From the NCBI GenBank assembly GCA_031292515.1, contig JARLGZ010000066.1, positions 1 through 64,000 on the forward strand: a DNA stretch of 64,000 nt, written 5' to 3'. The number at the start of each line of letters is the position of its first letter. The first letter of the stretch is position 1. The translations under genes were made by a program, and so were the position numbers. This document shows, one piece after another, positions 25,989 to 52,047 of the stretch. The notes beneath the pieces were generated by a model. That model was not told where the DNA came from. It worked only from the letters and a program-made list of their open reading frames with translations, and did no database searches. This DNA comes from Puia sp. (GTDB taxonomy: Bacteria; Bacteroidota; Bacteroidia; Chitinophagales; Chitinophagaceae).

Positions 25989-26157
25989 CACTCCCGCACC
26001 ACTGGCTCCAGTCTTCCCGTATCGAAAGCCTCAGTACCCCGGCTTCCGTACACGGGCACTCTCTGCCGCACTGTTGCCGCTGGCCTTCCCGTGTCGAAAA
26101 CCTTAATCCCTGGGCTTCCGTACATTGGCACTCCCTGCCGCACTATTGCCGGCTGCT
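25989..26157. repeat. Imperfect tandem repeat of about 73 bp (about 2.3 copies) at the 3' end of a lipoprotein gene
   Basis: cttcccgtatcgaaagcctcagtaccccggcttccgtacacgggcactctctgccgcactgttgccgctgg versus cttcccgtgtcgaaaaccttaatccctgggcttccgtacattggcactccctgccgcactattgccggctg, plus a partial copy. Confidence 0.75.
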
Positions 26158-26882
26158 CGCCGAGCCGGCGCCGTTCCGGGTATGACTCCGTAGCCAGTAG
26201 CCGTATAAAACTTATTTTGCGTTAGGCCATCGACCAGGCGATCGAGGTCGAAGAGAAGGGTCGTGTCGCAGGATTCAGAGTCCGGAGCGATGACCACGTT
26301 ACCATCGGTGCCGGCCACCCGCTTCGTATCCCCGATGGGCTCTGGGTTGTCGTTCCTCATTGCGATAATGGCTGGCGGATGCCCACCGGAAAGGCCTCCG
26401 GCCAGGCCGCCTGTCGGGGGTACCGAAAGAAAGGGCTGGCGGGATAATCCGCTTGCATTGTATGCCGTCGTCGTCCGCGCCCTATCCAGCTCCCCAGTGG
26501 CCCATACGCCCAGCTTATTGCCGACGATGATGACGGACGCTTTCAGGGGTAGGAAATCCGGATCGGTTTCCACCACAAAAAACCGGAAGGGCAGCGGATT
26601 GCCTGCCACCGGCAGGCGGAGGAAAAAATTTCCGGTTGGGGAGGGATCCAATGCTGCCCGGGAAAAATCCAGACTATCGTATTGCCCGATGGTCAGACAG
26701 TTCTTCAAATAGTGCATTACGGAATCCAGTTGCTCGCCGGGCCGATGAAAATAAACAGCCAGCTCCGTATTGAGTCCCTGGCTATTCTTGCTGCAAGCAA
26801 TCATCGCTGTCTGAAACAAGGCCGCTGTCAATATCACCGCTAGCCACCCCCTTTTATTTCCGTGTTTCAAAAAATGTTTCAT
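26103..26882 (-). CDS. Lipoprotein, N-terminal-domain-only member of the tandem family
   Basis: 259 aa. Lipobox MIACSKNSQ and LDSVMHYLKNCLTIGQYDSLDFS...GNFFLRLPVAGNPLPFRFFVVETD; lacks the C-terminal domain. Confidence 0.75.
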   Translation of the reverse strand: MKHFLKHGNKRGWLAVILTAALFQTAMIACSKNSQGLNTELAVYFHRPGEQLDSVMHYLKNCLTIGQYDSLDFSRAALDPSPTGNFFLRLPVAGNPLPFRFFVVETDPDFLPLKASVIIVGNKLGVWATGELDRARTTTAYNASGLSRQPFLSVPPTGGLAGGLSGGHPPAIIAMRNDNPEPIGDTKRVAGTDGNVVIAPDSESCDTTLLFDLDRLVDGLTQNKFYTATGYGVIPGTAPARRAAGNSAAGSANVRKPRD

Positions 26883-26938: not shown

Positions 26939-28354
26939 TCAGGGCGCCGTAGTCAGCCCTGCCGTGCCTCCGCCGGTTACGGCACTGCAATTGCCGCTGC
27001 CCTTCCCGACACTGGAAGTCCCCGCTGGATTGGCAGTTATACCGGCTGCGCCCATTTTATTGAGTGTATTCATCATCGTGTAGAGGCCATTTGACGTATT
27101 TGGATTAAGCGGGCCATTATTCAATAAGTCAAAAGCAGGATCGAGATTCGGTTGTCCCGTTGTCTGATAAAAAAAGTCGTAGGCGAATGAATTCCCATTG
27201 AACGTGTTGAAGTTGTAGGCCGTTTGGCTCAATGTTTGGAGCAGGGCTTCCGCTTGTGCAAAAGAGGCCGCGGAAATTTGAACGGTATAGCTGGCGCAAT
27301 AGGATGCATACTGCATATCCACCAGCATCCCCGGAGTCGAATACCCCTGGAGCGCCACAGCCGCGCTCGCAGGTGCAAAACCAATATATTGACTATCGCC
27401 GGATCCTCCGGAAGCCACACGTAGTCCAATAAAGCTCTGACCGATGTACCCATTGGAAGCCGTAACGGTGTTTGGATCGCTGGTAGGCAATGCGGTATAG
27501 AGCGTAATAAAATAGGTGTTATTCGCAAGCTGTGTTGCATACTGATCCAGGCAACCGAGATACCCTTTTATATTGATTGCGGGTTTTTCCGCCTGCGGGA
27601 GCACGGCGTAGGGGTTGACCGTGCCACCGGGTCCGCCCGATGATGAGTAGCTTCCCGATGAACCTCCATCCATAAGAGCCCCAAGATCCATGTAATAAGT
27701 GCCCTCTTCGGCGGTTGTCATGGGTGCTTCAATGAGAATGTCGGGAAGGGTCTCACCCGTTCCGTCAAAATCGCTGTCGGTGGTCTTATCACTGGCGTCT
27801 GACGCAATCGTTCTATCCGGGTGCAAAGCCGTTACAAAGCCACTGATTACCGGAGAAACGTACACCGTGCTCCCATTCAACCAGGTCTTCGTGATTATTC
27901 CGTTAGCGGCGGGAAGAGAACCGGATACGGCGTTTGCCGGGGTGATGGTTAGCTGGATCAGAAAGCCGGCGGCCTTTAAAGGCATCAATCCCTGTGTCGT
28001 CTCCACCAGGAAAAAGCGTCGGGAGACCGGATCGCCGAGGCTGGGCAACCGCAGGAAGAGGTTACCGGAACTCGCGGTGTCAACGATGATATCCGGGAAC
28101 TCCAGGCTATCATAGGCGGATGGGGACAGGCTGTCCCGGAGATAGGCTTTTACCGTATTCAAGGCGCTGCTCTGCGCCAGGGTCGGGTAGATCGGGCGTG
28201 CTGCCAGATTTTGTTGTGTTTTGGAACAAGAAATCGCGACAATCAACAGAGATATCGTCGAAATCAAAAAATATAAAATACGTGGCTTACGAATAGTATG
28301 ATAAAGGGAATGTTTCATGGCTATACTTTTTAAAATATTTGTACTTGCTTTCAC
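26939..28354 (-). CDS. Tandem-family lipoprotein 1
   Basis: 471 aa. Lipobox, DSDFDGTGETLPDILIEAP, IGQSFIGL, FNGNSFAYDFF. Confidence 0.85.
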   Translation of the reverse strand: MKASTNILKSIAMKHSLYHTIRKPRILYFLISTISLLIVAISCSKTQQNLAARPIYPTLAQSSALNTVKAYLRDSLSPSAYDSLEFPDIIVDTASSGNLFLRLPSLGDPVSRRFFLVETTQGLMPLKAAGFLIQLTITPANAVSGSLPAANGIITKTWLNGSTVYVSPVISGFVTALHPDRTIASDASDKTTDSDFDGTGETLPDILIEAPMTTAEEGTYYMDLGALMDGGSSGSYSSSGGPGGTVNPYAVLPQAEKPAINIKGYLGCLDQYATQLANNTYFITLYTALPTSDPNTVTASNGYIGQSFIGLRVASGGSGDSQYIGFAPASAAVALQGYSTPGMLVDMQYASYCASYTVQISAASFAQAEALLQTLSQTAYNFNTFNGNSFAYDFFYQTTGQPNLDPAFDLLNNGPLNPNTSNGLYTMMNTLNKMGAAGITANPAGTSSVGKGSGNCSAVTGGGTAGLTTAP

Positions 28355-28391: not shown

Positions 28392-29813
28392 TTACAATGT
28401 CAATGTGCTCTGCCCCGAAGTCGGCCCTCCGCCGCAATTTCCGTGGCTGGTACCGACCTGTCCCTGGGAGGATGGGTTGGCGGAAGCACCGGGGGTGGCT
28501 TTGGCTGCCAGGTTTGCGATGGCCATGTACAAGCCGTTGGGGGAGGAGATCGTCGACCCCGATATGTCTTCCATCGGAACCACGTTTAGCCCCCCGGCTC
28601 CGATCTGCGGGTTGTTAAAAATCTGGCTTATGAAATCGGTGCTGTTGAATTCATAAGGCGAATACTGTAAACTCGCGTCGTTGAGCATGGTATTTTCCAG
28701 GACCGCGAACTGGGCGGCCGTGATATTCTTGCTATAGCTGGCGTTGTAGGCGGAACCGCTCATATCTGCAAATTCCGAGGGCGTTTGGCCGGTTCCCTGC
28801 ACGCAGGAGGGGCATCCCGAATAGAAGCAGATATATTGCGTGGTCGTTTGACCGCCGGCTGTCTTCGACAATCCCAAAAAGGCATTTCCCAGGGGCGCCT
28901 GACCGACCGTCTTGTATAACATGGCGTTTGGGTCGCTTGTCGGAATAGAGGCATAGGCTGTCAGCGTGTAGGTGACGCCGGCAGTCGTCAACGCTCCAAA
29001 ACACCCAAAATAGCCCCGGAGGTTGATCGCCGGTCTTACCGTCGCCAGGTCAACGGGGAAGCCCAACAGGGACACCCCTCCGCTGTTACTCGATGTGTAA
29101 GCGCTTGTCCCGCCCCCGCCTTCTATCCATTCACCCAGGTCCATGTAGTACATCATTTGTTCATCGTCGGCGTAGGGTGCCTGGATCAGGATATCGGGCA
29201 GTGTTTCCCCCGTGCCGTCGAAATCGCTGTCGGTCGTCTTGTCCGTTGCATCTGCACCTACTGTTTTCGTCGGATGGAGGGCAGTCGTATACCCGTTCAC
29301 TACGGCGGAAGAATACACCTGGCCACCGTTCAGCCAGGTTTTTGTGACGGTCCCATTGAAGGCGGGTGAACTCCCCAGGAATAAGGCTTTTACCGCGGAA
29401 GATCCAGTCGACGGAAGAGCCGGAAAGACAGCTGTCTGTGCGACCAAAAATCTCGCTGCTTTTAACGGCGTCAGTTCCGGGGTGGTTTCTACGACAATAA
29501 ACCGCCTGGTGACCGGATCGCCCAGGCTTGGAAACCGCAGGAAAAGATTCCCCGTGGCCGTGCTATCAACCAGCATGTCGGAAAACTCCAGGCTGTCATA
29601 GGCGCCCGGAGAGAGGCTGTCTTGCAGGAACAGTCTTACCTGGGCAAGCGCCGGGGATTGAATCAGGTTGCTGTCGCCTGTTCCCGCCGCGGGGAAGTGC
29701 GCATTCTTACTACAAGAGAGGACCGCCAAAGTTAGCAAGACAATCGTCAAAAAAAATGGAAAAATGGGAAGGGTTGCTATTTTTAAATTCAGAAACCTGT
29801 TAATTTGTCTCAT
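28392..29813 (-). CDS. Tandem-family lipoprotein 2
   Basis: 473 aa. DSDFDGTGETLPDILIQAP, LGNAFLGLSKTAGGQTTTQYI, VGTSHGNCGG. Confidence 0.85.
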   Translation of the reverse strand: MRQINRFLNLKIATLPIFPFFLTIVLLTLAVLSCSKNAHFPAAGTGDSNLIQSPALAQVRLFLQDSLSPGAYDSLEFSDMLVDSTATGNLFLRFPSLGDPVTRRFIVVETTPELTPLKAARFLVAQTAVFPALPSTGSSAVKALFLGSSPAFNGTVTKTWLNGGQVYSSAVVNGYTTALHPTKTVGADATDKTTDSDFDGTGETLPDILIQAPYADDEQMMYYMDLGEWIEGGGGTSAYTSSNSGGVSLLGFPVDLATVRPAINLRGYFGCFGALTTAGVTYTLTAYASIPTSDPNAMLYKTVGQAPLGNAFLGLSKTAGGQTTTQYICFYSGCPSCVQGTGQTPSEFADMSGSAYNASYSKNITAAQFAVLENTMLNDASLQYSPYEFNSTDFISQIFNNPQIGAGGLNVVPMEDISGSTISSPNGLYMAIANLAAKATPGASANPSSQGQVGTSHGNCGGGPTSGQSTLTL

Positions 29814-29871: not shown

Positions 29872-31263
29872 TCAGGGAGCCAGAGAGAGGCCTGCACCCG
29901 TTCCGGTCGAGCCGCCACAATTCCCGTGACTGGCCCCCACGCTACTCCGGCTATTTGTATTGGCAAAGGCTCCCGGAACTTTTTGCGCCTGCAGGCTTTG
30001 TATATAGAGAAAGAGTCCATTGGGGGTTTCTATGGGACCTAAAGTGGGATCGGTAAGCTCCGGAGGGAAAAAATCCGATACCGCCGACCCGAAAGCGCTA
30101 TAAGCAAAATCACTGCTATTGGCATTCCAGGAGTTGAAATAGATGCCACTGTACATCGTTATATCGTCGGCGGCAAACTGAAATTGTTGCGCCGTTACCG
30201 AAACGGAATAGCTCGCATTGTAGGCGGACCCTCCCATATCCAGTATGGCGCCGGGTACCGGTGGGCTGCCGGCTCCATAAGCGACCGCCGGTGCGAAGCC
30301 AAAATATTGCGTGAACGTTTGCCCGCCGGAAGACTTTGTCAACCCGATAAAACTTTCACCCGTCGCGCCGTTTGTACCGGTCAGCACCGATGGGTTGGTG
30401 GTGGGGATCGACGCATAAATGGAGAGGGAATAGGTGGCCCCGGTGTTTGATATGAGACCGAAACAGCCGAGGTATCCTTTCAGGTTGATGGCGGGTCTGG
30501 CGGACAGGGCCGGATTCCCCAACATAGCGATAGAGGCGCCGCCTGATGCCGGTTCATAGAGGCCCGTACTCCCTCCCTCATCAATCATTTCACCCAATTC
30601 CATATAGTAGATCACCTCGTCGCCCGCCAGGGGCGCTTCGATGAGAATATCGGGCAATGTTTCCCCCGTCCCATCGAAATCACTGTCAATGGATTTATTA
30701 CTCTCTGCCGCCGCTGCCGACTTGTCAGGGTGCAGCGCCAGGATATAACCGTTTGCTACCGGAGATGTATAGGCTACCCTTCCATTCAACCAGGTTTTCG
30801 TCACCAACCCATTGAAACTGGCTGCCGAACTAGAACCTGCCATTGCCGCGGTGGTGTCCCAGCGGATGAAAAAGCAGGCGGCCTTTAGCGGTACTCCTCC
30901 CGGCGTCGTCTCTACCAGCACAAAGCGCCTGGAGACCGGATCACCCAGGTTGGGGAATCGCAGAAAGAGGTTCCCGTTTGTAGCCGTATCGACGATCACC
31001 TGGGAAAACGCCAGGCTATCATAAGCGCCCGGTGAAAGGCTGTCCTTGAGAAATAGGTTCACCCTGGTCAATGCAATTGCTTTGACCGTACTTTGATCGG
31101 CGGATGCCCCCGAACGCGGCTTTCCGTCTTTCGTACAGGATAGCAGGGCTATATTTAAAAAGGCCGTCGTCAGCAGGAGAATGCCGATCGATAGGAAAGT
31201 CAAAAACTTACGAAATGGTCTCATATCTTTTACATTTAACATGAATGAATTACTCGGTCTCAA
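29872..31263 (-). CDS. Tandem-family lipoprotein 3
   Basis: 463 aa. Same architecture; VGASHGNCGG C-terminus. Confidence 0.85.
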   Translation of the reverse strand: MRPSNSFMLNVKDMRPFRKFLTFLSIGILLLTTAFLNIALLSCTKDGKPRSGASADQSTVKAIALTRVNLFLKDSLSPGAYDSLAFSQVIVDTATNGNLFLRFPNLGDPVSRRFVLVETTPGGVPLKAACFFIRWDTTAAMAGSSSAASFNGLVTKTWLNGRVAYTSPVANGYILALHPDKSAAAAESNKSIDSDFDGTGETLPDILIEAPLAGDEVIYYMELGEMIDEGGSTGLYEPASGGASIAMLGNPALSARPAINLKGYLGCFGLISNTGATYSLSIYASIPTTNPSVLTGTNGATGESFIGLTKSSGGQTFTQYFGFAPAVAYGAGSPPVPGAILDMGGSAYNASYSVSVTAQQFQFAADDITMYSGIYFNSWNANSSDFAYSAFGSAVSDFFPPELTDPTLGPIETPNGLFLYIQSLQAQKVPGAFANTNSRSSVGASHGNCGGSTGTGAGLSLAP

Positions 31264-31286: not shown

Positions 31287-32651
31287 TCAGGGCGCAGTCG
31301 TCAGTCCCACAGCTCCTCCGGTGGATCCCCCGCAGTTTCCATGACTTGCCCCTACACTGGACTGGGAAGTCGCGTTGGCATATGCCCCCGTCGCTCCCGT
31401 GGCTGCTTTTTGTTCAATAGCCAGAAAGATTCCGTTTGGCGTCAGGGCGGTACCTGCCCCTGGGACGAGATAAGCACCCAGCCCGGTTGCATCCACGTCG
31501 TTGAAACTGTCAAATGCGAAATCGCTACTATTGGACAAACTCTGTTGATAAGGTCCGGTAGAAGATGTTCCGAGATAACTTATCAGATCGTTAAACTGGG
31601 CTTGGCTGATCTGTATAGTATAGCTCGCGTTATAGGCCGCCCCGCTCATATCTACCATCTTCGAGGCTATCGCCTGTCCATTGGAGGCGCAGGCGTCGCA
31701 GACGGGGAAAAATCCGAAATATTGGTTTGTTTGCTGGGATCCCGACGTCATTGAGAGTCCGATAAACGCCTGGCCGGGAACACCGGCGCCATTTGTCAAT
31801 ACAGTAGGGTTACTGGTCGGGATAGAGGCATAAATGGTTACCGAATAACGTGCACCGGAGGTCGGCAACAGACCGAAACAGCCGAGGTATCCTTTCAGGT
31901 TGATGGCGGGTCTTGCGGACAGGGCCGGATTCCCCAACATAGCGATAGAGGCGCCGCCTGATGCCGGTTCATAGAGGCCCGTACCCCCTCCTTCTTCAAT
32001 CATTTCACCCAATTCCAAATAGTAGATCACTTCGTCGCCCGCCAGGGGCGCTTCGATGAGAATATCGGGCAATGTTTCCCCCGTCCCATCGAAATCGCTG
32101 TCAGTGGATTTATTACTCTCCGCGGCCGCCACCGATTTGTCAGGGTGTAACGCCAGGATATAACAGTTTGCTACCGGAGATGTGTAGGCTACACTTCCAT
32201 TCAACCAGGTTTTTGACACAAACCCATTGAACATCGGCATCGACGGGGAGCTTGTCGTGGCAGCGGCCGTGTCCCGGTGGATGAGAAAGCAGGCGGCTTT
32301 TAACGGTATCCCTCCTGTGGTCGTCTCCACCAGCACGAAGCGCCTGGAGACCGGATCACCCAGGCTGGGGAATCGCAGAAAGAGATTCCCGTTTGTAGCC
32401 GTATCGACGATCACCTGGGAAAACTCCAGGCTATCATAGGCGCCGGGAGAAAGGCTGTCCTTGAGAAAGGGGTTCACCGCGCCCAGTGCCTTTGTCTTAT
32501 TTATACCGCCGTTGGCGGATTCCGCAGAGAAAGTCTTCCCTTGTTTGTTGCAGGATACTAACGCCGCGACGATCAGGAAAACTACCGGAAAAAAAATAGC
32601 AAAATTGACAACGGATGAGATCGAATGAAAGAATCTATTGAAGGGTGTCAT
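31287..32651 (-). CDS. Tandem-family lipoprotein 4
   Basis: 454 aa. Central region nearly identical at DNA level to lipoprotein 3. Confidence 0.85.
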   Translation of the reverse strand: MTPFNRFFHSISSVVNFAIFFPVVFLIVAALVSCNKQGKTFSAESANGGINKTKALGAVNPFLKDSLSPGAYDSLEFSQVIVDTATNGNLFLRFPSLGDPVSRRFVLVETTTGGIPLKAACFLIHRDTAAATTSSPSMPMFNGFVSKTWLNGSVAYTSPVANCYILALHPDKSVAAAESNKSTDSDFDGTGETLPDILIEAPLAGDEVIYYLELGEMIEEGGGTGLYEPASGGASIAMLGNPALSARPAINLKGYLGCFGLLPTSGARYSVTIYASIPTSNPTVLTNGAGVPGQAFIGLSMTSGSQQTNQYFGFFPVCDACASNGQAIASKMVDMSGAAYNASYTIQISQAQFNDLISYLGTSSTGPYQQSLSNSSDFAFDSFNDVDATGLGAYLVPGAGTALTPNGIFLAIEQKAATGATGAYANATSQSSVGASHGNCGGSTGGAVGLTTAP

Positions 32652-32719: not shown

Positions 32720-34096
32720 CTAGGGCGCTGGCGTCAACCCTGGGTACCCGGCAACTGTTCCTCCGCAGTTACCGTGGCTGGAGCCGACGACGGATTGTAC
32801 ATTCGCATTGGTCGTCGCTCCCGGAGCTTTTGATGTGGCTGCATTCTGTATCTCGAAAAAGACGGCATTCGGGGTGCCGGCATATTGGCTGGGTGAATTG
32901 ACGGGTAGCGAAGGCATTGTCAAGTATCCCGGATCAACGCTATTAATGGCGTTAACGGCAAAAGTGCTGCCTGTCGACATGCCCGCCGCATAAGGAGTTC
33001 CCACACTGATCTGGATTTGAAAAAGCAGGGTAGCAAACTGGCCCGCGTTTAGACTCAGGGTATAACTGGCATTGTACGCGCTGCCTCCCATGTCCACTAT
33101 TTTAGACGGTGTGGACGGCAAGCCGGCATCGCAGGGGCAGTCCGGAAAGAAACCGATGTATTGAGTGGTAGTCCTATTCCCTGCTGTCTTGGACAATCCC
33201 AGGAAAGTTTGACCGGTGCCTCCGGAAGCATTTGATAGGACGAGGGGGTTGCTGGTCGGAATCGAGGCATAAATCGTCACCGAATAGGTAGCCCCTGTGT
33301 TCGGTAAGAGACTGAAGCAACCCAGGTAGCCGGCGACATTGATAGCAGGTTGTTCGTTTTGAAAGCTGGATGGAAAGACCCCGAGGGATGATCCCGAACC
33401 GTTTGCGGATACATAGGTATTCACGGCCCCCTCTCCGCTATCGAATATTTCCTCCAGATCCAGGAAATAGGCGTCTCCTTCTTCACCCGTAGGAGCGGTG
33501 ATGACGATCTCCGCCAGTTCCTCGCCGGTACCATCGAAATCGCTATCGGTGTTTTTTTGCGCCAATGCCTCGGTAGAAATACTTCTGGAGGCATTCAGTA
33601 CCGTGATTAAACCATTGACCACTGGAGACGAGTAGACAGTATCTCCCCCCAGAGTCGACCGGGTGATGCTGCCATTAAAGCCCATTACCCTGTTTGTCGA
33701 ATCCGAAGTCTGCAGGTTTATCCCGGGTGTGATCCGAAGCCACGCTGCTTTCAAAGGAACCAGCCCTGGTGTAGTTTCTATGGCGATAAATTGCCTCGAA
33801 ACAGGCACGCCGAGGCTTGGGACCCGAAAGAAAAGATTGCCCGTACTGGCTGTATCTAAGATTATCCTGGAAAACTCCAGGCTGTCATAGGCGCCAGGCG
33901 TGAGGCTGTCCTTTAAAAAGGCTTGAATGGGTTTCAGGACGATCGCGGAGATTCCCGCGCCCGCGGAGCCGGAAGGTTCGTTTTGCGGCGTCTTGCTGCA
34001 GGAGAATAGGATCGCCAGCATCGCCACGGCGATCAGGAGCAAGGCTATCCGCCAGGCTTTGATGGAATGGGTCGTTTCGGTTGAATATCTTTTCAT
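32720..34096 (-). CDS. Tandem-family lipoprotein 5
   Basis: 458 aa. DSDFDGTGEELAEIVITAP, TGQTFLGLSKTAGNRTTTQYIGF, VGSSHGNCGG. Confidence 0.85.
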   Translation of the reverse strand: MKRYSTETTHSIKAWRIALLLIAVAMLAILFSCSKTPQNEPSGSAGAGISAIVLKPIQAFLKDSLTPGAYDSLEFSRIILDTASTGNLFFRVPSLGVPVSRQFIAIETTPGLVPLKAAWLRITPGINLQTSDSTNRVMGFNGSITRSTLGGDTVYSSPVVNGLITVLNASRSISTEALAQKNTDSDFDGTGEELAEIVITAPTGEEGDAYFLDLEEIFDSGEGAVNTYVSANGSGSSLGVFPSSFQNEQPAINVAGYLGCFSLLPNTGATYSVTIYASIPTSNPLVLSNASGGTGQTFLGLSKTAGNRTTTQYIGFFPDCPCDAGLPSTPSKIVDMGGSAYNASYTLSLNAGQFATLLFQIQISVGTPYAAGMSTGSTFAVNAINSVDPGYLTMPSLPVNSPSQYAGTPNAVFFEIQNAATSKAPGATTNANVQSVVGSSHGNCGGTVAGYPGLTPAP

Positions 34097-34193: not shown

Positions 34194-35579
34194 TTAAGGC
34201 GTCAGCCCTGATTGTGTTCCTACGCTTATCGTTCCTCCACAGTTCCCATAGCTTTGGCCCGCGGCGCTCTGTACCGGGGAGGCGGTCGCCCCATCTACGC
34301 CGTCCCATACCAGTTTCGCGATCGCGATATACACTCCGTTGGGAGTAATGCCGGGTGGTGCGATCGGGGTAAGGCTCATATCCGGCACCTCCAGGACACC
34401 GGGCGCCACCAGGTCGAAGACGTCCAGCGCATAAGAGGCGCAGTTATAGTCGTAGAGAGAATAATCCAGATCAGCGTCACTCTCCATTCGGGTCTGGACC
34501 GCGGCAAACTGGTCGGCGGTGACGTTTACCGTATAGCTTGCGTTATAGGGATGTCCTTCGTTATCCACCAGTTTGGAGGTCGTAAAGTTGCCGGTAACGG
34601 CGCACCAACCGCAGGACGCATAAAACCCGATGTATTGAGTGGCCGATTGTCCCCCCGCCGTTTTCGTCAATCCAAGAAAAGTGTGTCCGACGTGCAAGGT
34701 GGATGGGTTGAACATGATATTCGGGTTGCTGGAAGGAATGGCCGAATAAATGGTTACCGAATAAGTTGGATCCTTCCCAGTGAAGGCGTCCAGGCAGGCC
34801 AGGTAGGCCTTGACATTGATTCCGGGTTTCTCGGCCTGCACATCGACCGCATAGACACTTACCGAACTCGACGAACTGCTACCGCCACCGCTGAGGAGCT
34901 GATAGCTCCCCGACCCGCCACCTCCTTCTATGAACACACCTAGGTCGGCATAGAACATCATATTTTCATCATCCTCAAAAGGAGCTTCGATCAGGATATC
35001 GGGTAGTGTTTCCCCCGTGCCGTCGAAATCACTGTCATTCGACTTATCGGCCGCATCGGTGGAAACTGTTTTTGCCGGGTGGAGGACGGTGGCAAAACCG
35101 CTTACGACCGGGGAGGTATAGGCCACGCTACCCTTCAACCAGGTCTTCACGATGGTTCCGTTGAAGCTCCCTGAACTGCGGGTGGACGCCGTGTCCTGGC
35201 CGGTCTGGATGATGCGGATACCGACCGCTTTCAAGGGAATAAAACCCGGCGAAGTCTCTACAAGGAGGAATCGTTTGGAAATCGGATCGCCCAGGCTGGG
35301 AAAACGCAGGTAGAGATTCCCGCTGGCAGCGGTATCGAGCACCCCCTGGGAGAACTGGAGGCTGTCATAGGCAGAAGCCGGGAGACTATCCTGTAAAAAA
35401 TGTTTCACGGAATCCAACTGGCTGGCCTGAATTCCCGGGTAGGATGGACGGGCTACCGCATTCTGCGGTGACTTGTTACACGAAATGGCTGCCGTCAGCA
35501 GCATGATACTCACGAATACGGCGCCCCGTAGGCGAAAACCCCTATGCCTTTTGGGGGTGGATGTTAAAAACTGTCTCAT
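34194..35579 (-). CDS. Tandem-family lipoprotein 6 with candidate intact His/Cys active site
   Basis: 461 aa. VGHTFLGLTKTAGG ... YDYNCASYALDVF, unlike its paralogs. Confidence 0.85.
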   Translation of the reverse strand: MRQFLTSTPKRHRGFRLRGAVFVSIMLLTAAISCNKSPQNAVARPSYPGIQASQLDSVKHFLQDSLPASAYDSLQFSQGVLDTAASGNLYLRFPSLGDPISKRFLLVETSPGFIPLKAVGIRIIQTGQDTASTRSSGSFNGTIVKTWLKGSVAYTSPVVSGFATVLHPAKTVSTDAADKSNDSDFDGTGETLPDILIEAPFEDDENMMFYADLGVFIEGGGGSGSYQLLSGGGSSSSSSVSVYAVDVQAEKPGINVKAYLACLDAFTGKDPTYSVTIYSAIPSSNPNIMFNPSTLHVGHTFLGLTKTAGGQSATQYIGFYASCGWCAVTGNFTTSKLVDNEGHPYNASYTVNVTADQFAAVQTRMESDADLDYSLYDYNCASYALDVFDLVAPGVLEVPDMSLTPIAPPGITPNGVYIAIAKLVWDGVDGATASPVQSAAGQSYGNCGGTISVGTQSGLTP

Positions 35580-35648: not shown

Positions 35649-37085
35649 TTATTCGGATAGCCCATTTCCGTATTCAGGAGGGGTGCAAGGGCCGTGGCTT
35701 TGGCCTGCCAGCATTTGCGCATTTTGATCCGTATAAATGCTGGTGTTGGCGTTCCCGCTCATTCCCTTGATGGAAGAATAAATGCCGTTCGGCGTTGCTT
35801 CGTCTTCTCCCGGGAGATTCGGGGTAAGCCCCGTGGCCGGCACTCCACTCGAAGTAAAGAGGCCGTACGCCAGGAGAGACTGGTTAAAATCGCTGGCTGT
35901 GTAGTTGTAGCCGCTATAGGAGTTGAGGGCGCCTTGTAAGGCGGTAAAGACGCCTGGACTTATCGTGACCGTAAGTCTTGCATTGTAGGGGGCGCCACTC
36001 ATGTCTACCACTTTGGTCGTCGTTTGCTGGTTGTTTTCCGCACAACTCGCGCAAACCGGTTCAAACCCAAAATACTGGGTGACGGTTTCCCCATACTCTG
36101 TTTTTGATAAACTGAAAAACGTCTCGCCTGTATTCCCATACGGGTCGGTCAATAGGTTGGGGTCACTGGTCGGGATGGATGCAAAAATGCTTATCGCGTA
36201 GGTGGCGTTCAACTCATCAATCAGGTTGAAGCAGGCGAAGTAATTTTTTAACGTAATAGCAGGTAAATCCACCGCACCATTGGAAGGGTTGACCAACAAA
36301 GAAGTGCCCGAACCGTTCGCGGGTGCATAGGTCGTTAGCGACGCGACGCCACCTGTTCCGAGCAGATCCGCTAGATCGATATAAGTGACTTCATCGTCAA
36401 AGACATTGGGAGCCGTAATAATGACCTCGGTGAGTTCTTCTCCCGTTCCGTCAAAATCACTGTCTGTGGATTTACCCGAAACGGCATCCGCTGAAACGGT
36501 CCTGGACTTAGCCAACACCGAGACCACCCCGTTGACCACCGGTGAGGAATAGGCGGTCGATCCATTCAAGGCCAGGCGAGTGACTGTGCCATTAAATCCG
36601 CTGATCGTTCGCGTAGCATTTCCCCCGGATTGAACCGATGCAGTCTGCGCCTGCTCTATCAGGAATTTGGCGGCCTGTAAAGGCAGTATTCCCGGCGTTG
36701 TCAGCACCAGTACAAACCGATGCGCCACCGGGTCTCCGATGCTGGGAATTCGCAGGAATAAGCCGCCTGTGCTGGCGGAATCAACGATCAGGTTTGAAAA
36801 ATCCAGGCTGTCATAAGCCGGTTCGGATAAACTGTCCCTCAGATAGTGTTTCACGGAATCAAGCCGGTTGCCTTGTAAAGTTGGGTACGAGGGACGGGCC
36901 GTCGCATTGGGCTGCGACTTGTTACACGAGATGGCTGCCGTCAGCAGCATGAGACTGAAAAAAAAGAACGCTGTCCAACCGAAGAACTTGCTTGTCCTCC
37001 AGCTTTTCTTTGAGAGATGTTTCATGTTGTTGTATTTTTTAAAATGAAAAAGAAAATGGTTCCCCGGCCCACACCAGGCGGGCAT
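35649..37085 (-). CDS. Tandem-family lipoprotein 7
   Basis: 478 aa. DSDFDGTGEELTEVIITAP, TGETFFSLSKTEYGETVTQYFGF; C-terminus AGQSHGPC. Confidence 0.8.
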   Translation of the reverse strand: MPAWCGPGNHFLFHFKKYNNMKHLSKKSWRTSKFFGWTAFFFFSLMLLTAAISCNKSQPNATARPSYPTLQGNRLDSVKHYLRDSLSEPAYDSLDFSNLIVDSASTGGLFLRIPSIGDPVAHRFVLVLTTPGILPLQAAKFLIEQAQTASVQSGGNATRTISGFNGTVTRLALNGSTAYSSPVVNGVVSVLAKSRTVSADAVSGKSTDSDFDGTGEELTEVIITAPNVFDDEVTYIDLADLLGTGGVASLTTYAPANGSGTSLLVNPSNGAVDLPAITLKNYFACFNLIDELNATYAISIFASIPTSDPNLLTDPYGNTGETFFSLSKTEYGETVTQYFGFEPVCASCAENNQQTTTKVVDMSGAPYNARLTVTISPGVFTALQGALNSYSGYNYTASDFNQSLLAYGLFTSSGVPATGLTPNLPGEDEATPNGIYSSIKGMSGNANTSIYTDQNAQMLAGQSHGPCTPPEYGNGLSE

Positions 37086-40196: not shown

Positions 40197-40203
40197 TGTT
40201 GAG

Positions 40204-41482: not shown

Positions 41483-42340
41483 TCACCTTGCCTTCAACAA
41501 CACCTTCGGTTTCACCCTCAGCAGCAGGGTCCGGCCTCCTTGCGGTTCCGCCACTTCCACTACCAGCACCTTGTCCTGCGCGATCGTAAACGGCTCATAG
41601 CCGATGGCAAAAGTCCGTTGCCGGCGCCCCGGGACGGGGAGAGGCTCCCCGAAAACGGGTAGCAAGTCGATTTGCTGCCGGGTCGTCCGCTTAATCAGCT
41701 TGCGGTCCTCGTAATATAACCGGAAGTGGTCGGGGTCATAACTCAGCTTGGAGCGGTTTGAGAGCGTAAAGACCATCCATTGCAGACTATCTTTGAGATA
41801 GATACCCTCAAGGGACAGCCGCATTTTTTCGTTGCGCTTCGAAATATGGAGAAAATGCTTTTTCCCGATGATTTCGTTTGCATCCCCGGCCAGGGTTACC
41901 CGGTCTGTTGGAATCCCTGACAGCATCACCAGATTGGTATCGGTCTTAGGGGACGCCTGGTGATCGGGGAAGGCGAGGGGCGAGCCCTTGCCGGCGGGCC
42001 AGACAACCCGGTAGTTCAACACGCTTGAATCCTCCGAGTAGTGAATCACGAAAGAGTATAGTTTTCCGTCCCAGCCGTATACTGAGAAATTCGTCGGAGG
42101 AAAATTCCGCCAGTTGGCCTTTAGTTCAATGATATTTTCGACGCCCCTGACCTTTTGGGCCATCAGGGCCTTACTGACGCGGATGCCTGATCGAACCGCT
42201 ACGGGGAAAATCAGGTTCGTCATCTTCTCCATCGTCACGGGGATGGAGTGGGAGGGGATGCCCTCCAGGATAAAGTCGGGTTGCTGGGCCTTGACTTCCA
42301 CATAAAAGCCGACAAAACATAGCAAAATCAAAAATCTCAT
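41483..42340 (-). CDS. traN: Conjugative transposon protein TraN
   Basis: 285 aa. TraN/DUF4138 pattern, KMTNLIFPVAVRSG...NIIELKA. Confidence 0.8.
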   Translation of the reverse strand: MRFLILLCFVGFYVEVKAQQPDFILEGIPSHSIPVTMEKMTNLIFPVAVRSGIRVSKALMAQKVRGVENIIELKANWRNFPPTNFSVYGWDGKLYSFVIHYSEDSSVLNYRVVWPAGKGSPLAFPDHQASPKTDTNLVMLSGIPTDRVTLAGDANEIIGKKHFLHISKRNEKMRLSLEGIYLKDSLQWMVFTLSNRSKLSYDPDHFRLYYEDRKLIKRTTRQQIDLLPVFGEPLPVPGRRQRTFAIGYEPFTIAQDKVLVVEVAEPQGGRTLLLRVKPKVLLKAR

Positions 42341-42351
42341 ATAGGTATTTT

Positions 42352-43746
42352 TTAACGTTTATTGATTCGGGTATTTTTCAGCAGCACCTGCTGACCGGCT
42401 TTTACGCTGACCTTTATCAGCTTCACCTTCCGGCTGACCAGGGTCTTTAGCCCCTGGATGCCCGCCGTCGCCATCTGGGCGCCGAAATTGGGATCGAGAC
42501 TTGCCAGGCCCATTCCGTTGATCGCCTGGTCGGCGGTTTCTTTCGAAACGTCCCGGGAGATGGCGCCGGGCACCCACAGGCCTTCCAGGCCATCGAGGTC
42601 ATAAGCGGACAAGCCGACGGGAAACACATTGTTGCCGACCCGGATTGAGCTAACGGAAATATTCATTCGCTCCCCGTTCACGGTCACTTTACCCGATACG
42701 ATATTGTTCCGGGGAATCTTCACGCCGTTCACCACCGCCTCCTGCAGCAGCCGGAGTTCGCAGATGGCGCCGCTCATCAGGGTGCCGTCCTGGTCGATCA
42801 CCGCCCGGATGGTATTGTCCATCGCAGAATCCGGTTCGTCTTCATCTCCCAGGTCCATGAAACCTCCGCTGGCGGGGTCTGCCGCCGTGGATCTGCCGAA
42901 AGCCTGATCCGGTCGGTCATATGCGTCCTTTCCCGGCCCGTTTTCCCCCAGGGTGTGGATAGCAGTGGCTGCTGCCGGCCTTGATACCAGGGCTGTCTCC
43001 GCACTGACTGGCGCACCCGCTGTATCGCCGCGGGATTCTTCCGGATGCTGAATACGGAGGATCTTGTCGAGGATGGTATTGTATTTTTCCATTTCGGGGT
43101 CGCGGGCGCTGGTATCTTTCCCCGTCTTCGGAGCCAGGGCTTTTTCTAAATAGGCGAGGGGGCTCACCCCGGAAAGCCCACCCGGCGGCGGAGCCCCCGT
43201 GAAACCCTGTGAGCCAGGTCCACCAGCATAACCACCCGGTAGTCCTCCGGGTCCCTTCATGGTATTACCAGGCTGGTTGATTACTTTTTTCAACTGCTCC
43301 AGTTTCTCCAGCACCTTCTCCGCCTGTTTGGAGCCGGGATTTTCTTCCGGAGAAGGGTTGAGATCCTCCTCGGCGTTCGATCCGTGCTTCCTTTCTCCGA
43401 ACCCAAACAAATGGGTAGCCGTATCTTTTTTTCCATTCATCCCGGGAATACGGCCTGTGTAATACGGGTCTGTCCGCATCCGGTCCCGGATATGCATGGA
43501 ATCGATATTGGCCTTGTTGTAAAAACCCAATTTGTCGAGGGATTTTGTGCGTGGGTCGAAGTGCGCAGCCGGCAGCGACAAATTCAGACCTTTGGCGTCG
43601 GAAGAACCGGCAGGATCTTTTTTCTCTCCCTTGCCACCGCCCAGGCCATAAAAGGTGATGCTCATGAAAACGATCATCAGTAATGGCGCGAAGAGGAAGA
43701 ACTTTCGCTGCCGGTAAAATTTTTCGTCCCGTTGTTTCGGTATCAT
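42352..43746 (-). CDS. traM: Conjugative transposon protein TraM
   Basis: 464 aa. FFLFAPLLMIVFMSITFYGLGGG; C-terminal IRAVIDQDGTLMSGAICELRLLQEAVVNGVKIPRNNIVSG. Confidence 0.85.
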   Translation of the reverse strand: MIPKQRDEKFYRQRKFFLFAPLLMIVFMSITFYGLGGGKGEKKDPAGSSDAKGLNLSLPAAHFDPRTKSLDKLGFYNKANIDSMHIRDRMRTDPYYTGRIPGMNGKKDTATHLFGFGERKHGSNAEEDLNPSPEENPGSKQAEKVLEKLEQLKKVINQPGNTMKGPGGLPGGYAGGPGSQGFTGAPPPGGLSGVSPLAYLEKALAPKTGKDTSARDPEMEKYNTILDKILRIQHPEESRGDTAGAPVSAETALVSRPAAATAIHTLGENGPGKDAYDRPDQAFGRSTAADPASGGFMDLGDEDEPDSAMDNTIRAVIDQDGTLMSGAICELRLLQEAVVNGVKIPRNNIVSGKVTVNGERMNISVSSIRVGNNVFPVGLSAYDLDGLEGLWVPGAISRDVSKETADQAINGMGLASLDPNFGAQMATAGIQGLKTLVSRKVKLIKVSVKAGQQVLLKNTRINKR

Positions 43747-43803
43747 GCTGTTACTTTTTGAATTTTAATTTGTATTTGTACTGCTCGGCTTGACAAAAAA
43801 TGA

Positions 43804-44229
43804 TTACGGATTCAATTGATAGAGCTGATGAAGCGTATCCGACAGTCCAGGCCGTACACGTAACAGGCTATCCCACTTTCTCATCAACGAAGTGTCCCGG
43901 TGGATACTGTCCATCATCTCGTAAAAAGATCTACCTCTTCCCCGGGGAGCAGGCATGCGCTGGGTTCTCATTACGGGAGAAGGTGACCATGGGATAGAAG
44001 AGATGGATGCCGGATGGGCGATCGCATGCCAGATCAACAGCCCATTCACCAGGGCAAGTATCGAAATGGTGAGAATGATATACACTTTAAAAGCCATCGG
44101 TGGGATCCTGGCGGATCGCCGCTGTAGCCAGTCACTGATTTTTACCCGCACCATTCTTTCCCGCTCCAAAAAGGTCTTATACCAGTGCGGGAGTTCTTTG
44201 GGGGTTTTCTGCTTTCTCTTAAAAAACAT
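43804..44229 (-). CDS. Conjugative transfer membrane protein at the TraL position
   Basis: 141 aa, one TM, lies between traK and traM. Confidence 0.55.
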   Translation of the reverse strand: MFFKRKQKTPKELPHWYKTFLERERMVRVKISDWLQRRSARIPPMAFKVYIILTISILALVNGLLIWHAIAHPASISSIPWSPSPVMRTQRMPAPRGRGRSFYEMMDSIHRDTSLMRKWDSLLRVRPGLSDTLHQLYQLNP

Positions 44230-44262
44230 GACAAAACGATTTAACTTTTAAAAGAATAGTGC

Positions 44263-44913
44263 TTATTGGCCCTGTCGCGACTCTACTTTAACATCTTTGT
44301 TTTCCAGGATCGACCAACGCTCGATCAAAAAACCGTGGGGGTCATTGTCCGATCGGTTGACATCCCGTAGCCAGCCTTCCGTCACCAGGTCGCGGGTGAC
44401 GGTGCTGGTAGCCCGGGTAATCGTCTCCGTGGCATAGCAGCGGAAATAAAAAGGGTAATTCGTCAGGTTCAGGGAAATGCTGTCGATCGATACCCGCTGG
44501 CTGATATTGGCGCTGACCACGCCACTGTAATAGCCGGATTCCTTTAGGTTGTCATAGATCCTCTTCACGCTGCCGTCAGCCAGGTACATGGCTTTTTTGA
44601 TATTCTCATAGATCATTTTCTCGTCAGGGTCGAGCGTAAAGAAATCCTGCATAAAACTTGTGACGTGCGCGCGGGCTTCGACGGGAATATTCGAGGCCCG
44701 GTCACTGGCGAACGCCTCAAAGGCTTTGCCCGCGGAAAGGATATATACCTTTGCCTCGGACTTCAGGACCATATCGTTTGCCTTGATCACAATGAATACG
44801 CCGAAGCACAGGCTACCCAGGATGGAGACAATGCTCACCATCCTCATTTGTCGAAAAGAAGTCTCGATATTTTTTGCTTTTGGAAACATATCCGTCATTT
44901 TTTCATAAGTCAT
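44263..44913 (-). CDS. traK: Conjugative transposon protein TraK
   Basis: 216 aa from the internal ATG at 44913. MFPKAKNIETSFRQMRMVSIVSILGSLCFGVFIVIKA... RVSIDSISLNLTNYPFYFRCYATETITR. Confidence 0.85.
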   Translation of the reverse strand: MTYEKMTDMFPKAKNIETSFRQMRMVSIVSILGSLCFGVFIVIKANDMVLKSEAKVYILSAGKAFEAFASDRASNIPVEARAHVTSFMQDFFTLDPDEKMIYENIKKAMYLADGSVKRIYDNLKESGYYSGVVSANISQRVSIDSISLNLTNYPFYFRCYATETITRATSTVTRDLVTEGWLRDVNRSDNDPHGFLIERWSILENKDVKVESRQGQ

Positions 44914-44969
44914 GTAAAGAAACCCGCCGGGGTATTGTCCTTCCTCCCTGGCCGTTGCGGTCCGTGCCA

Positions 44970-46064
44970 TCATAACACCGTTGCTGCCATTGCGGCCGAT
45001 TTTATGCTTGTAGAAGCTACCGTGCCGGCTGATTGAGAGGCCGCATTCGTGACCTTTTGCAAATGGGCGCCGCCTGCCGGGAATACGGTGATGATGTGTT
45101 GGGTAATGCTGGGCACCGAGCAGTATCCCACCAGCCCCATACAAAGGAAAACCAGGTAGGCAAGGTCTGTAGCACCGAAGGTGGTCTGCCCGCTGGCTTG
45201 CAATTGCTGGATATCGATCTTTAACATCTGAACCTCCACCTGCCCGATGATGGACCCAAAAATGTTGCAGACCGGCAGCCAAAGGAAAATATGGACGTAC
45301 TTGGCAAACCAGGCGACAACCAGGTGGTGCAACCCATCGAAGACGCTGAGACCCAGGACAAGCGGCCCGACGATGGCGAGCACCACGAGATAGAAGATCC
45401 GGACTGTATTCACGCAAAGGGAAGCCGCCTCAAAGAGGGTTTCTAAAATCTGGGAGAGTACCAGTTTGAAAGAGTTCTTGATATTGTACTCGGCCTTCGA
45501 CATCTCAAACTTCACCCAGTTGCCAAGCCCCGAGAAAACCCCGTTGTCCGTGTTGCCTGTATATTCCGCCCATTTCTCCATGCTGCCATTTCCATCCGGA
45601 CCTACATAGGCCTGCCATTCCTGCCCCTGCTCCAGCAACTGTTGTTTTTGAGCCAGCAGGTTGGCAATGGCCTGGTTGGAATTTTTCACCAGGGCATTCG
45701 TCGCCGTATTGGTAGGCTCCAGGATATCATTCATGACATCGATCAGGGTGGTATAGAAAACCAGGACCACGCCGATCGCGAAGGGTCTTAGCAAGGGCAT
45801 GAAATCGATGGGTTCGGCCCTGCCCAAATGCCCCCAAATCTTGTTGGAGCAGTAGAGCAAAGCCCCAAAGGCAGCGATTCCCCTGGCCACGCCGGTCAGT
45901 TCCCCGCAAGAGGCCAGCATGGTCTTAAAAACGGTAAACAAGCTCTTCTGGACGGTGGTGATATCGCTGGTAAAAGACGAGGTGGTATCCTGGCAGAAGG
46001 CACAGAAGGGTAAAAGGAGGACTATACCCGCCAGCAGGCTGGCGCAGGCAAATGATTTTTTCAT
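44970..46064 (-). CDS. traJ: Conjugative transposon protein TraJ (multi-TM)
   Basis: ORF trimmed to the ATG at 46064 (MKKSFACASLLAG signal peptide); several TM helices, TraJ-type FMPLLRPFAIGVVLVFYTTLIDVMNDI. Confidence 0.8.
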   Translation of the reverse strand: MKKSFACASLLAGIVLLLPFCAFCQDTTSSFTSDITTVQKSLFTVFKTMLASCGELTGVARGIAAFGALLYCSNKIWGHLGRAEPIDFMPLLRPFAIGVVLVFYTTLIDVMNDILEPTNTATNALVKNSNQAIANLLAQKQQLLEQGQEWQAYVGPDGNGSMEKWAEYTGNTDNGVFSGLGNWVKFEMSKAEYNIKNSFKLVLSQILETLFEAASLCVNTVRIFYLVVLAIVGPLVLGLSVFDGLHHLVVAWFAKYVHIFLWLPVCNIFGSIIGQVEVQMLKIDIQQLQASGQTTFGATDLAYLVFLCMGLVGYCSVPSITQHIITVFPAGGAHLQKVTNAASQSAGTVASTSIKSAAMAATVL

Positions 46065-46101
46065 AAAAAAAATTAAAGGAGGATGCGAATCGATCCTCTG
46101 G

Positions 46102-46842
46102 TTATTGAAGCCCGTATTCGGTTTTAAAAAAATTGATATCGTTTTGTTCAACGCCGCGCTGACCGCCCTGGATCACTCCGTTGTTATTAAACGTTCGCAG
46201 GAAGCTGAGTTTATCGGTCATATCCTTGTCCACCCGGTCGATGGCGGCCAGCCTCTCGGCATCGCTCATGCGCAACTGACCGGCTGTAATCACCATCGTC
46301 AACTCCTCGATGTCCCGGAGGCTGCCGTTGAACAGGTTTGTATACACCGTGCTCAGATAATTCAGTTCGGCGGACGAGAAGTACCCGTTTTTCTGGAAAT
46401 AACTATTGGCGGATTGGTATTCCTTCACTAGGGTAGCCTCGTTGTTGATGATATTGGCGATTTTATAGTAGTTGCTTACCGCCGGCGAGACGGCCAGCAG
46501 GGCGTCCAGAAAGGCTTTGTGCAGGTTGAAATTTCCCTGGCTGATGCTTTTCACGTCCTCATACCCCTTGTAGATGATCGTGTAGGCGTTGTACATATCC
46601 GTCAGAATCTGCTTCATCTGGGCCAGTTTCTCGTAATCCAGGGTCAGTTGGGTGATATCGTCGGCAAGCGACTGGGCGCGTAGGGGAGCGTAACCCGACA
46701 ATAGGATCAGCGCCAGGAGGACGACCGTTCTCCGACAGCCAGTCAGGCGACGGCTACCCGGAACCCTCATCGGATGGTCCGGCGAAACCGTTGATTGAAC
46801 CGGCAACCACCTGCTTTGCTTACTCTGTGGAATGGTTTTCAT
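46102..46842 (-). CDS. TraI/TrbJ-like conjugation protein, copy 1
   Basis: 246 aa. IEELTMVITAGQLRMSDAERLAAIDRVDKDMTDKLSFLRTFNN. Confidence 0.65.
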   Translation of the reverse strand: MKTIPQSKQSRWLPVQSTVSPDHPMRVPGSRRLTGCRRTVVLLALILLSGYAPLRAQSLADDITQLTLDYEKLAQMKQILTDMYNAYTIIYKGYEDVKSISQGNFNLHKAFLDALLAVSPAVSNYYKIANIINNEATLVKEYQSANSYFQKNGYFSSAELNYLSTVYTNLFNGSLRDIEELTMVITAGQLRMSDAERLAAIDRVDKDMTDKLSFLRTFNNNGVIQGGQRGVEQNDINFFKTEYGLQ

Positions 46843-46876
46843 TTTTTTTATTTTATAGGTGTTCTTGTCGTTACTG

Positions 46877-47557
46877 TCAGGGCAGGCCGTACCAGGTCTT
46901 CAGATTTCCCAGGTCCGCTTGACCGGATAATCGTTGCTGGCTCAGCAATTCCGTTCGGTTGGTGAAATTCTCCACAAAAGCGTACTGGTCTTTGACACGG
47001 GCATCGAGGGCCTGGATCGAACGCATGCGCTGGTCGTCCGACATGCTGTAGGAGTTCGCCGTCAGCAGCGTGATCAGGGCGCCTACATCGGCTTCGGAGG
47101 CCGAGGTGATATTCGAAAAAACCTTGCCCACATAGGCGAGGTCCCCGGCACTCAGTGATTTACTGTTTGTCCAACTGCTGATCGCGGTGGAAAACTTCTC
47201 GATGATGACGATCTGGAGCGCAATGATCTCTGCTACTTCCGCCATGCTGGCCACAGCGGGGTTGATCTGTTCGAGCGAGGAGATAAAAGCGCTGTGAATA
47301 TTGAAATCGCCGTTTTTGATGGTTTTTATCTCCTGCCATCCGCTCTCGATTACCTGGTAGCCCTTCTCCAGTTTGCTGATGTACAATTTCATGGCGGCAA
47401 TTTGCTCGCCATAGTATTCCAGCATAGAGCTGCTTTGCGAGAAGATATTGCTCAGACCCTGGGCGCGGGCGCCGGCTCCCCCGATCAATAGGACAAATGC
47501 TAAACCCACCATTTTTTTCATCATTGTAATTTTTAAACGATTCATACTTCCATCCAA
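46877..47557 (-). CDS. TraI/TrbJ-like conjugation protein, copy 2
   Basis: 226 aa. Paralog: LITLLTANSYSMSDDQRMRSIQALDARVKDQYAFVENFTNR. Confidence 0.65.
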   Translation of the reverse strand: MDGSMNRLKITMMKKMVGLAFVLLIGGAGARAQGLSNIFSQSSSMLEYYGEQIAAMKLYISKLEKGYQVIESGWQEIKTIKNGDFNIHSAFISSLEQINPAVASMAEVAEIIALQIVIIEKFSTAISSWTNSKSLSAGDLAYVGKVFSNITSASEADVGALITLLTANSYSMSDDQRMRSIQALDARVKDQYAFVENFTNRTELLSQQRLSGQADLGNLKTWYGLP

Positions 47558-47582
47558 TCACTGCTCAACAAAGCCCGGTTGC

Positions 47583-48263
47583 TCAGGGAATCCCATACAG
47601 CGCTTTTGTCGCCAGGATATCATTACTATCCTGGGCCCGTTCCAGGCTCAGCATGGTATTTCGTTGGGAAAATGTCTGGAGATCGGAATAGTTCTTGTCG
47701 ATCCGGCTTCCTGCCTCATCAATGATCCGGAGCCGGTCGGCATCCGCCATTTGCGTGAGCAGGGCCGTGATGACCAGGTCGATCTGGCTGAGGTTGTTGA
47801 CGCTTTGCTGCATGATTCCGTTCAGGACCCGGTACATGCCGGCGACTTCATCGGCCGTAAAGTGGCTGTCTTTTTGAACGGCCGCGTAGGACTGCTGGTA
47901 GCCCGATACGACCGCCGCTTCTTTGGCGATCAGGTCTTTCACCCGGTCGTAGGCATTGATAGCGTTTTTGATCTCCCACAATTCTTGAAAATAATTGGCG
48001 TAGAGGTCTTTGGTTTGTTGTACCCAGCTGGTGATATCGCCCAGCTCGGATTGCTGCATGGAATTGTCGAGGTCCTTTTCGGTGTTCTGTAGACCGAGTG
48101 TTTCCACTTCGGCCTTCTGAACCGCCAGGTCCAACGCGACTACCACCTTCTTCGCTGCAGCATTGATGATCGAGATGATGTCCAGGACCTGCGCGTCGGA
48201 TCTCGCCGGCGTCATCATCGCCAGCAATACTATCGGTATCGCATATATTAGATTATTTTTCAT
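47583..48263 (-). CDS. TraI/TrbJ-like conjugation protein, copy 3
   Basis: 226 aa. Paralog: IDLVITALLTQMADADRLRIIDEAGSRIDKNYSDLQTFSQRN. Confidence 0.65.
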   Translation of the reverse strand: MKNNLIYAIPIVLLAMMTPARSDAQVLDIISIINAAAKKVVVALDLAVQKAEVETLGLQNTEKDLDNSMQQSELGDITSWVQQTKDLYANYFQELWEIKNAINAYDRVKDLIAKEAAVVSGYQQSYAAVQKDSHFTADEVAGMYRVLNGIMQQSVNNLSQIDLVITALLTQMADADRLRIIDEAGSRIDKNYSDLQTFSQRNTMLSLERAQDSNDILATKALYGIP

Positions 48264-48373
48264 TTTATTGCGTTTTTGTGTCGATCGACTGTCATTGTTC
48301 TATCGCTTAGTCCAGGGTGGCTTATTTGATTCTCGTCGGGTAACGTATTCCGCTTAGACTTCGTTTCCCGATC

Positions 48374-48553
48374 CTACGGCAGGTCTTCCAGGCATTCCAA
48401 CCGGTCCGTATAATGAGCCAGCGTCATAGGGTCCTTTAGGGAAGCAATTTCCTTCTCCACCGTCTGGCGCTCTTCCTCCGTCAGTGGCCGGCTTTGCTCG
48501 TTATCCAGGTTATACACCGCCCAGCAATCGGCGAATTTTCGGATACAATACAT
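48374..48553 (-). CDS. Small hypothetical ICE protein (59 aa)
   Basis: Hand translation MYCIRKFADCWAVYNLDNEQSRPLTEEERQTVEKEIASLKDPMTLAHYTDRLECLEDLP*, just under the ORF-track cutoff. Confidence 0.65.
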   Translation of the reverse strand: MYCIRKFADCWAVYNLDNEQSRPLTEEERQTVEKEIASLKDPMTLAHYTDRLECLEDLP

Positions 48554-48645
48554 GGTCCTCTATTTTTTGCGTTACTCATTCCGTTTCTGTAAATCAGCCT
48601 TTCTCTTATTTGTTCAGCATGCGATCTCCCTCTTTGTGACCCATC

Positions 48646-51111: not shown

Positions 51112-51433
51112 AGCTTGTGAATAGTTTTATGTATACTTTCCTCGATTTTGAAATGATGGCTTTTGGAACCGCTTTTCTCGCCGATTTTTTCATGAGGCCA
51201 TACTGGCCATACTTCTTGCTCATGGCGTAGATGAGACGGATCAACCAGGCCCCCACGGCCAATACCAGCACCAGGCAGATAACCGGGTTGATTCCGCACA
51301 CATACATGATGGCAAAGGACACCAGCAAGCCAATCACGGCGCCCGCCAGGAGCCAGATATACTGTGCCTTCAGACCCTTAAAGACAATCGGTCTGTTGAT
51401 GCCCTTGTTGACTTTATATGCTTTACTCATCAT
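51092..51433 (-). CDS. traF: Conjugative protein TraF (DUF4133)
   Basis: 113 aa. YKVNKGINRPIVFKGLKAQYIWLLAGAVIGLLVSFAIMYVCGI. Confidence 0.85.
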   Translation of the reverse strand: MMSKAYKVNKGINRPIVFKGLKAQYIWLLAGAVIGLLVSFAIMYVCGINPVICLVLVLAVGAWLIRLIYAMSKKYGQYGLMKKSARKAVPKAIISKSRKVYIKLFTSYAGRTH

Positions 51434-51472
51434 TTTATTTTTTAAAGAACCGTAAAGAGTGATTTTCCAACG

Positions 51473-51607
51473 CTATACATGGATCATGACCAGCAGGGCG
51501 ATTAAACCCGCGGCTGCAATAGCCAGTAGCCAGACATAGCGGGACAGTAATTTTTTGGGGGCAATAGGTCCTTCGGACACGCTGCCTGGTTTAAAGGACT
51601 TTCTCAT
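51473..51607 (-). CDS. Small single-TM protein (44 aa)
   Basis: Hand translation MRKSFKPGSVSEGPIAPKKLLSRYVWLLAIAAAGLIALLVMIHV*, between traF and traE. Confidence 0.55.
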   Translation of the reverse strand: MRKSFKPGSVSEGPIAPKKLLSRYVWLLAIAAAGLIALLVMIHV

Positions 51608-51714
51608 AGCTTTTTTTAAGATGATTAAGAATGAAATTTCAAAACACGATCCGGACAGGGCGGTCTTTCTTAATCCCCTTACCCGCTTTATCCGCCGACC
51701 GCCGTCTCGAATTT

Positions 51715-52047
51715 TTAGGTGACTCCAAAGAAAGATTTCAACACGCTTGCGACAACGACCAGGAAGATGCAGGCCGAGAACCAGGCCGCGGCTACCTTTC
51801 CGGTATCATGGTCGCCGTGGCTCCACTTGAGGTAAACCCGGATGGCCCCGATCAGTCCGACGATCGCTCCGACGATATACATCAGGCTGATCGCGTCGTC
51901 GAAATACGTTTGAAGCATGGAGGTGGCTTTCGTGATCCCCGTGGCGCCGTCGCCGTTGTCGGTTTGTGCATCCGCAGCCAACCCAATCAGCAACCCCGCT
52001 TCGATCATCGCCCCATAGACGAACACTTTGATTTTTTTGCTTTTCAT
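51715..52047 (-). CDS. traE: Conjugative protein TraE (DUF4134)
   Basis: 110 aa. SMLQTYFDDAISLMYIVGAIVGLIGAIRVYLKWSHGDHDTGKVAAAWFSACIFLVVV. Confidence 0.85.
   Translation of the reverse strand: MKSKKIKVFVYGAMIEAGLLIGLAADAQTDNGDGATGITKATSMLQTYFDDAISLMYIVGAIVGLIGAIRVYLKWSHGDHDTGKVAAAWFSACIFLVVVASVLKSFFGVT

Follow-up and report, generated by a model that had tools for sequence, protein, structure and literature searches.

Why would a bacterium keep seven tandem copies of one lipoprotein gene when a single copy has what looks like the active site of an enzyme? The question is raised by a stretch of 64,000 nucleotides (nt) from Puia sp. (Bacteroidota, Chitinophagaceae; contig JARLGZ010000066.1 of assembly GCA_031292515.1, positions 1 to 64,000), hereafter the window. 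Seven full-length lipoprotein genes form a tandem set on the minus strand (26942-37085). Together with an eighth, truncated member they occupy 26103-37085, all in the same direction, with intergenic gaps of 58-97 nt; a gap of 707 nt precedes the array. The sixth gene, copy 6 (34194..35579, minus strand), encodes a lipoprotein of 461 amino acids (aa) and is the sole member of the array with a putative active site.

This site had been proposed in the preliminary description, and its residues are indeed found in the 461-aa open reading frame: VGHTFLGL contains His299 (codon 34683..34685, minus strand) and YDYNCASYALDVF contains Asn379 and Cys380 (YNCAS; Cys codon 34440..34442, minus strand). In the six paralogues, all on the minus strand, the residues at the His and Cys positions are Gln/Gly in copy 1 (26939..28354, likely start 28318), Asn/Ser in copy 2 (28392..29813), Glu/Ser in copy 3 (29872..31263, likely start 31224), Gln/Ser in copy 4 (31287..32651), Gln/Gly in copy 5 (32720..34096) and Glu/Gln in copy 7 (35649..37085, likely start 37025). 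It had been claimed that none of the six has the His, which is correct, but in genome order (26942, 28395, 29875, 31290, 32723, 35652) the substitutions read Q/N/E/Q/Q/E and not Q/N/E/E/Q/Q. The series G/S/S/S/G at the Cys position is right for the first five; the last copy aligns a Gln (DFNQSLLAY), not the Ala that had been given.

The family outside the array behaves differently. Homologues were drawn from overlapping sets of 33 genus, 200 family and 399 order genomes, together with named genomes, and 92 distinct C-terminal domains were aligned, of which about 84 outside the array could be scored. His and Cys are both present in 82 of these ~84 domains, compared with one of seven inside the array (Fisher p ~3e-7, a value that is merely indicative since the homologues are not independent). 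The pattern is therefore beyond chance, and a chance motif in copy 6 is rejected. Overall, 83 of the 92 distinct domains carry both residues, copy 6 included. The exceptions outside the array are L080 (His/Arg, at a contig end) and L104 (1342-2319, Asp/Asn), a solitary relative and the sole one there to have lost both residues; one further domain ends before the His. The same genome has two solitary members, L008 and L010, both with His and Cys, and no comparable array was seen elsewhere in the sampled genomes.

Other positions separate copy 6 from its neighbours or unite them. A second His, commonly conserved in the family (DNxGHEYNAS), corresponds to His343 of copy 6 (DNEGHPYNAS; codon 34551..34553, minus strand); within the array it is retained by copy 6 alone, with Ala or Ser in the other six. 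Tyr373, seven residues before Cys380, is invariant in one alignment (A2) and nearly so in another (A3). Two non-catalytic cysteines, Cys262 (codon 34794..34796) and Cys447 (codon 34239..34241, both minus strand), are invariant in all 30 aligned members, inactive copies included, and could form a disulfide. It might be asked whether the six copies are active after all, with another nucleophile or a non-hydrolytic activity, since Ser occupies the Cys position in three of them and the conserved preceding Tyr is kept in five of the six. The His is also gone (Q/N/E), and the Cys position is Gly in two copies and Gln in one; any such activity seems very improbable.

The C-terminal domain of copy 6 (residues 251-461; 34197..34829, minus strand) is assigned to the circularly permuted papain-like type (NlpC/P60-LRAT), as had been suggested from the motifs, and this assignment is supported. 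In profile-profile alignments the family aligns to Lnb_N (DUF4105) over 134 columns (E 0.0017), with the His residues and the NC motifs in register, and its Cys region matches LRAT over 43 columns (E 1.7e-5); reversed-sequence controls give E ~0.5. Family members also match the Pfam models Peptidase_C97/PPPDE, Lnb_N and LRAT, centred on the NC motif. In the AlphaFold model of copy 6 (residue number = model number + 33), a check that the preliminary description had proposed for the C-terminal half, the blocks of the C-terminal domain have confidences of 78-98; His299 is the first residue of a predicted strand and Cys380 the first residue of a predicted helix. The top solved structure in a Foldseek search with this model is TseH (6v98), a weak match (E 0.016, probability 0.94), and the top match in a viral library is a picornavirus polyprotein (probability 0.99). 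The picornavirus group includes 2A proteins of the H-NC (LRAT-like) type, with which the latter match is consistent, and it is counted in favour of the papain-like fold. Sequence searches of the PDB were of no use except for a sub-threshold match to 6v98. The eight array proteins yielded no usable hit in plain scans against Pfam and NCBIfam either, and no model in these databases names or covers the lipoprotein family. The family has its place within a known superfamily; what is unusual is the preserved inactive array.

PMC12994826 assigns TseH, LRAT, YiiX, DUF4105 and Tox-Act1 to the permuted NlpC/P60 group; it describes Tox-Act1 as having phospholipase activity and as being paired with a membrane-associated immunity protein. 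Lipid-like substrates are argued for this group in PMC3142127.

Are the six copies without the His-Cys pair on their way out? Their reading frames are intact, and the ratio of nonsynonymous to synonymous substitution rates (dN/dS) is below 1: it is mostly 0.1-0.4 in both domains where dS is not saturated, and most array pairs are close to saturation of dS. This indicates that the six copies are old and maintained, and pseudogene decay is rejected. The label of pseudoenzymes, given to them in the preliminary description, seems apt as far as the sequences tell, since both catalytic residues are gone from intact genes with dN/dS below 1. The domain that is best preserved is not the catalytic one: pairwise comparison shows stronger conservation in the N-terminal than in the enzyme domain for 20 of 21 pairs within the array and for only 17 of 528 pairs outside, the reverse of the pattern in the relatives. 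All seven copies (26939-37085) also share DSDFDGTGE, which resembles a DxDxDG calcium-binding loop and is absent from the aligned relatives.

The history of the losses is harder to read. In the unmasked tree copy 6 is sister to the six inactive copies (support 95/91), as if the pair had been lost once, but this apparent support fell when the active-site columns were masked; the pair may have been lost once or several times. With the masked full-length sequences copy 6 pairs with copy 1 (98/94), and in the masked tree of the C-terminal domain it stays outside the six, weakly (85/40). Recombination may confuse these trees: in copies 3 and 4 (29872-32651), the linker and a portion of the N-terminal domain are near identical and the C-terminal enzyme domain is only 48% identical, a mosaic that, judged from the sequences, is likely to result from recombination or gene conversion.

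Members of the family are built of a lipobox, an N-terminal domain of ~160-200 aa, a linker rich in Gly and Ser and the C-terminal papain-like domain. Every full copy in the array has the lipobox-type Cys (invariant SC in the alignment), which in copy 5 stands in FSC, outside the strict lipobox pattern. The truncated eighth member (26103..26882, minus strand) is homologous in its N-terminal part only and lacks the papain-like domain. No canonical Bacteroidota promoter pattern was found upstream of the array copies.

Most solitary relatives have a small partner gene directly downstream, and the array does not. A small membrane or secreted protein is encoded within 35 nt downstream of 62 of 82 homologues, compared with 16 of 107 control genes. 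Four of these 62 reading frames are TraF; the other 58 partners belong to several unrelated families and comprise four-helix membrane proteins (21 loci), secreted-type proteins of ~140 aa (13), single-helix proteins (11) and others. In the window no homologue of a partner was found; only TraF matched. The solitary members thus have an effector-immunity-like layout, which is lacking in the array. A plain effector-immunity system of the polymorphic toxin kind, in which copy 6 would be an antibacterial toxin with a lipid anchor and its inactive neighbours would be leftovers that decay or serve as decoys, would agree with the diversity of the small partners and with the fact that permuted NlpC/P60 toxins (PMC12994826) and lipoprotein toxins (PMC5562445) are known. 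It would also agree with L155 (1051-2550), a lipoprotein that joins a related N-terminal part to a different C-terminal region, DUF3289. This is the single alternative C-terminal domain seen, no immunity-like gene accompanies the array, and six intact copies with dN/dS below 1 are not decaying; we regard this explanation as unlikely.

The surroundings of the array include conjugation genes. Genes for DUF4138 (TraN-type), TraM, TraJ and TraG (41483..51111, minus strand) belong to the same element, and TraF- and TraE-like genes (51092..52047, minus strand) are homologues of the DUF4133/DUF4134 proteins encoded in the operons of relatives; an RteC gene is also present in the window. Of 97 loci with family homologues, most of them with short flanks, 25 have TraE, TraF or TraG nearby, and the family is often linked to the conjugation (tra) operons of Bacteroidota. 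In six genomes of the same genus (L065-L069 and L072) an intact member directly precedes traF, without a small partner; four of these genomes also have traE just upstream, which places the family gene between traE and traF. A gene for a Crp-type regulator is frequently found near the homologues. In the window, PAPS-reductase-like, MT-A70 and N6/N4 DNA methylase genes (38739-41289) lie in the interval that separates the array from the tra genes. Farther away, two tyrosine recombinase genes flank caspase-like, AAA (AbiEii-like) and PIN-domain genes (7296-18349), possibly a defence cargo.

The linkage to traE, traF and traG in many genomes, and the six partner-less genes before traF, raise the possibility of a module that assists conjugation or mediates exclusion. 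In that case the lipoproteins would serve the envelope of the donor or recipient in transfer, by remodelling or by TraT/TraS-like exclusion, and the array would have diversified for recognition and not for catalysis. The enzyme domains of the array are indeed diversified. A lipoprotein next to a polytopic membrane protein of ~140 aa also resembles the TraT/TraS layout, which counts for exclusion. Many relatives, mostly with short flanks, lie outside a detected tra context and have other small partners, and exclusion has no need of a catalytic His-Cys pair, which is conserved in the relatives. We consider this module rather unlikely, but less so than a plain toxin.

The explanation that we prefer, tentatively and at slightly less than an even chance, combines an enzyme with binding proteins. 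The array would be carried by an integrative conjugative element and would have arisen by lineage-specific expansion of a Bacteroidota family of envelope proteins with a lipid anchor. Copy 6 would most likely be a working cysteine enzyme with a lipid-acyl substrate, a phospholipid or a lipoprotein; it would act either on the cell envelope while conjugation takes place or on neighbouring cells. The six copies without the His-Cys pair would be retained as folded binding proteins, whose most likely role is to sit on the target of copy 6 or to block copy 6 itself. Solitary members are usually followed by a small membrane or secreted partner, whose place the inactive copies may take here. That the inactive paralogues actually took over an immunity or exclusion function from this partner, making one active and six inactive copies a self-contained module of enzyme and blockers on the conjugative element, is a narrower proposal, which we think improbable.

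Several results weigh against the enzyme-plus-binding-proteins explanation. Wherever bit scores for the Pfam matches were seen, they fall short of the curated cut-offs (14.3 bits for copy 6 against Lnb_N, with a cut-off of 22.2; the best E for Lnb_N in the family is 0.013), and the Foldseek E-values are only ~0.01. The model of an inactive copy (copy 4) matched no papain-like structure, so the fold of the inactive copies rests on their homology to copy 6 (41-48% identity); the structural score is probably lowered by the flexibility of the two-domain model and by the missing motif. The control genes used for the partner statistic were not matched for operon context. Finally, the partner-less members of the same genus have intact His and Cys and lie in a tra operon; a missing partner therefore need not mean that inactive copies replace it.

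How does the family compare with known systems? Lnb_N/DUF4105 (PF13387), a permuted NlpC/P60 clade common in Bacteroidota, has the same order of motifs (GH...NYG...YxYxFxxDNCT), an envelope location and the His and Cys matched in the profile alignment, but its N-terminal part differs and the family scores under its Pfam cut-off. To our knowledge, Lnb_N/DUF4105 has no link to conjugation. LRAT (PF04970) and PPPDE/Peptidase_C97 (PF05903) share the His before the NC motif and a Cys that opens a helix, but only the Cys half aligns and they lack a lipobox domain. The effectors TseH and Tox-Act1 share the permuted NlpC/P60 core, and TseH is the best structural match; unlike the family, they are delivered by type VI secretion and have no lipid anchor, and an array of inactive paralogues is not described in the passages of PMC12994826 that were consulted. 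The Pfam family of TseH itself, DUF6695, does not match the lipoprotein family. The SitA lipoprotein toxins of myxobacteria (PMC5562445) have a lipid anchor, a C-terminal activity domain, a downstream partner and mobile-element-like units in common with the family, but their N-terminal domains are unrelated, their C-termini are highly polymorphic and they are delivered by outer membrane exchange.

The locus points to an unannotated family of Bacteroidota, whose members are permuted NlpC/P60 proteins with a lipid anchor and are linked to conjugation operons; one enzyme with six preserved inactive relatives next to it forms a naturally occurring set. If the idea of blocking is true, this would be a case of pseudoenzymes that a mobile element encodes as built-in partners for its own envelope enzyme.
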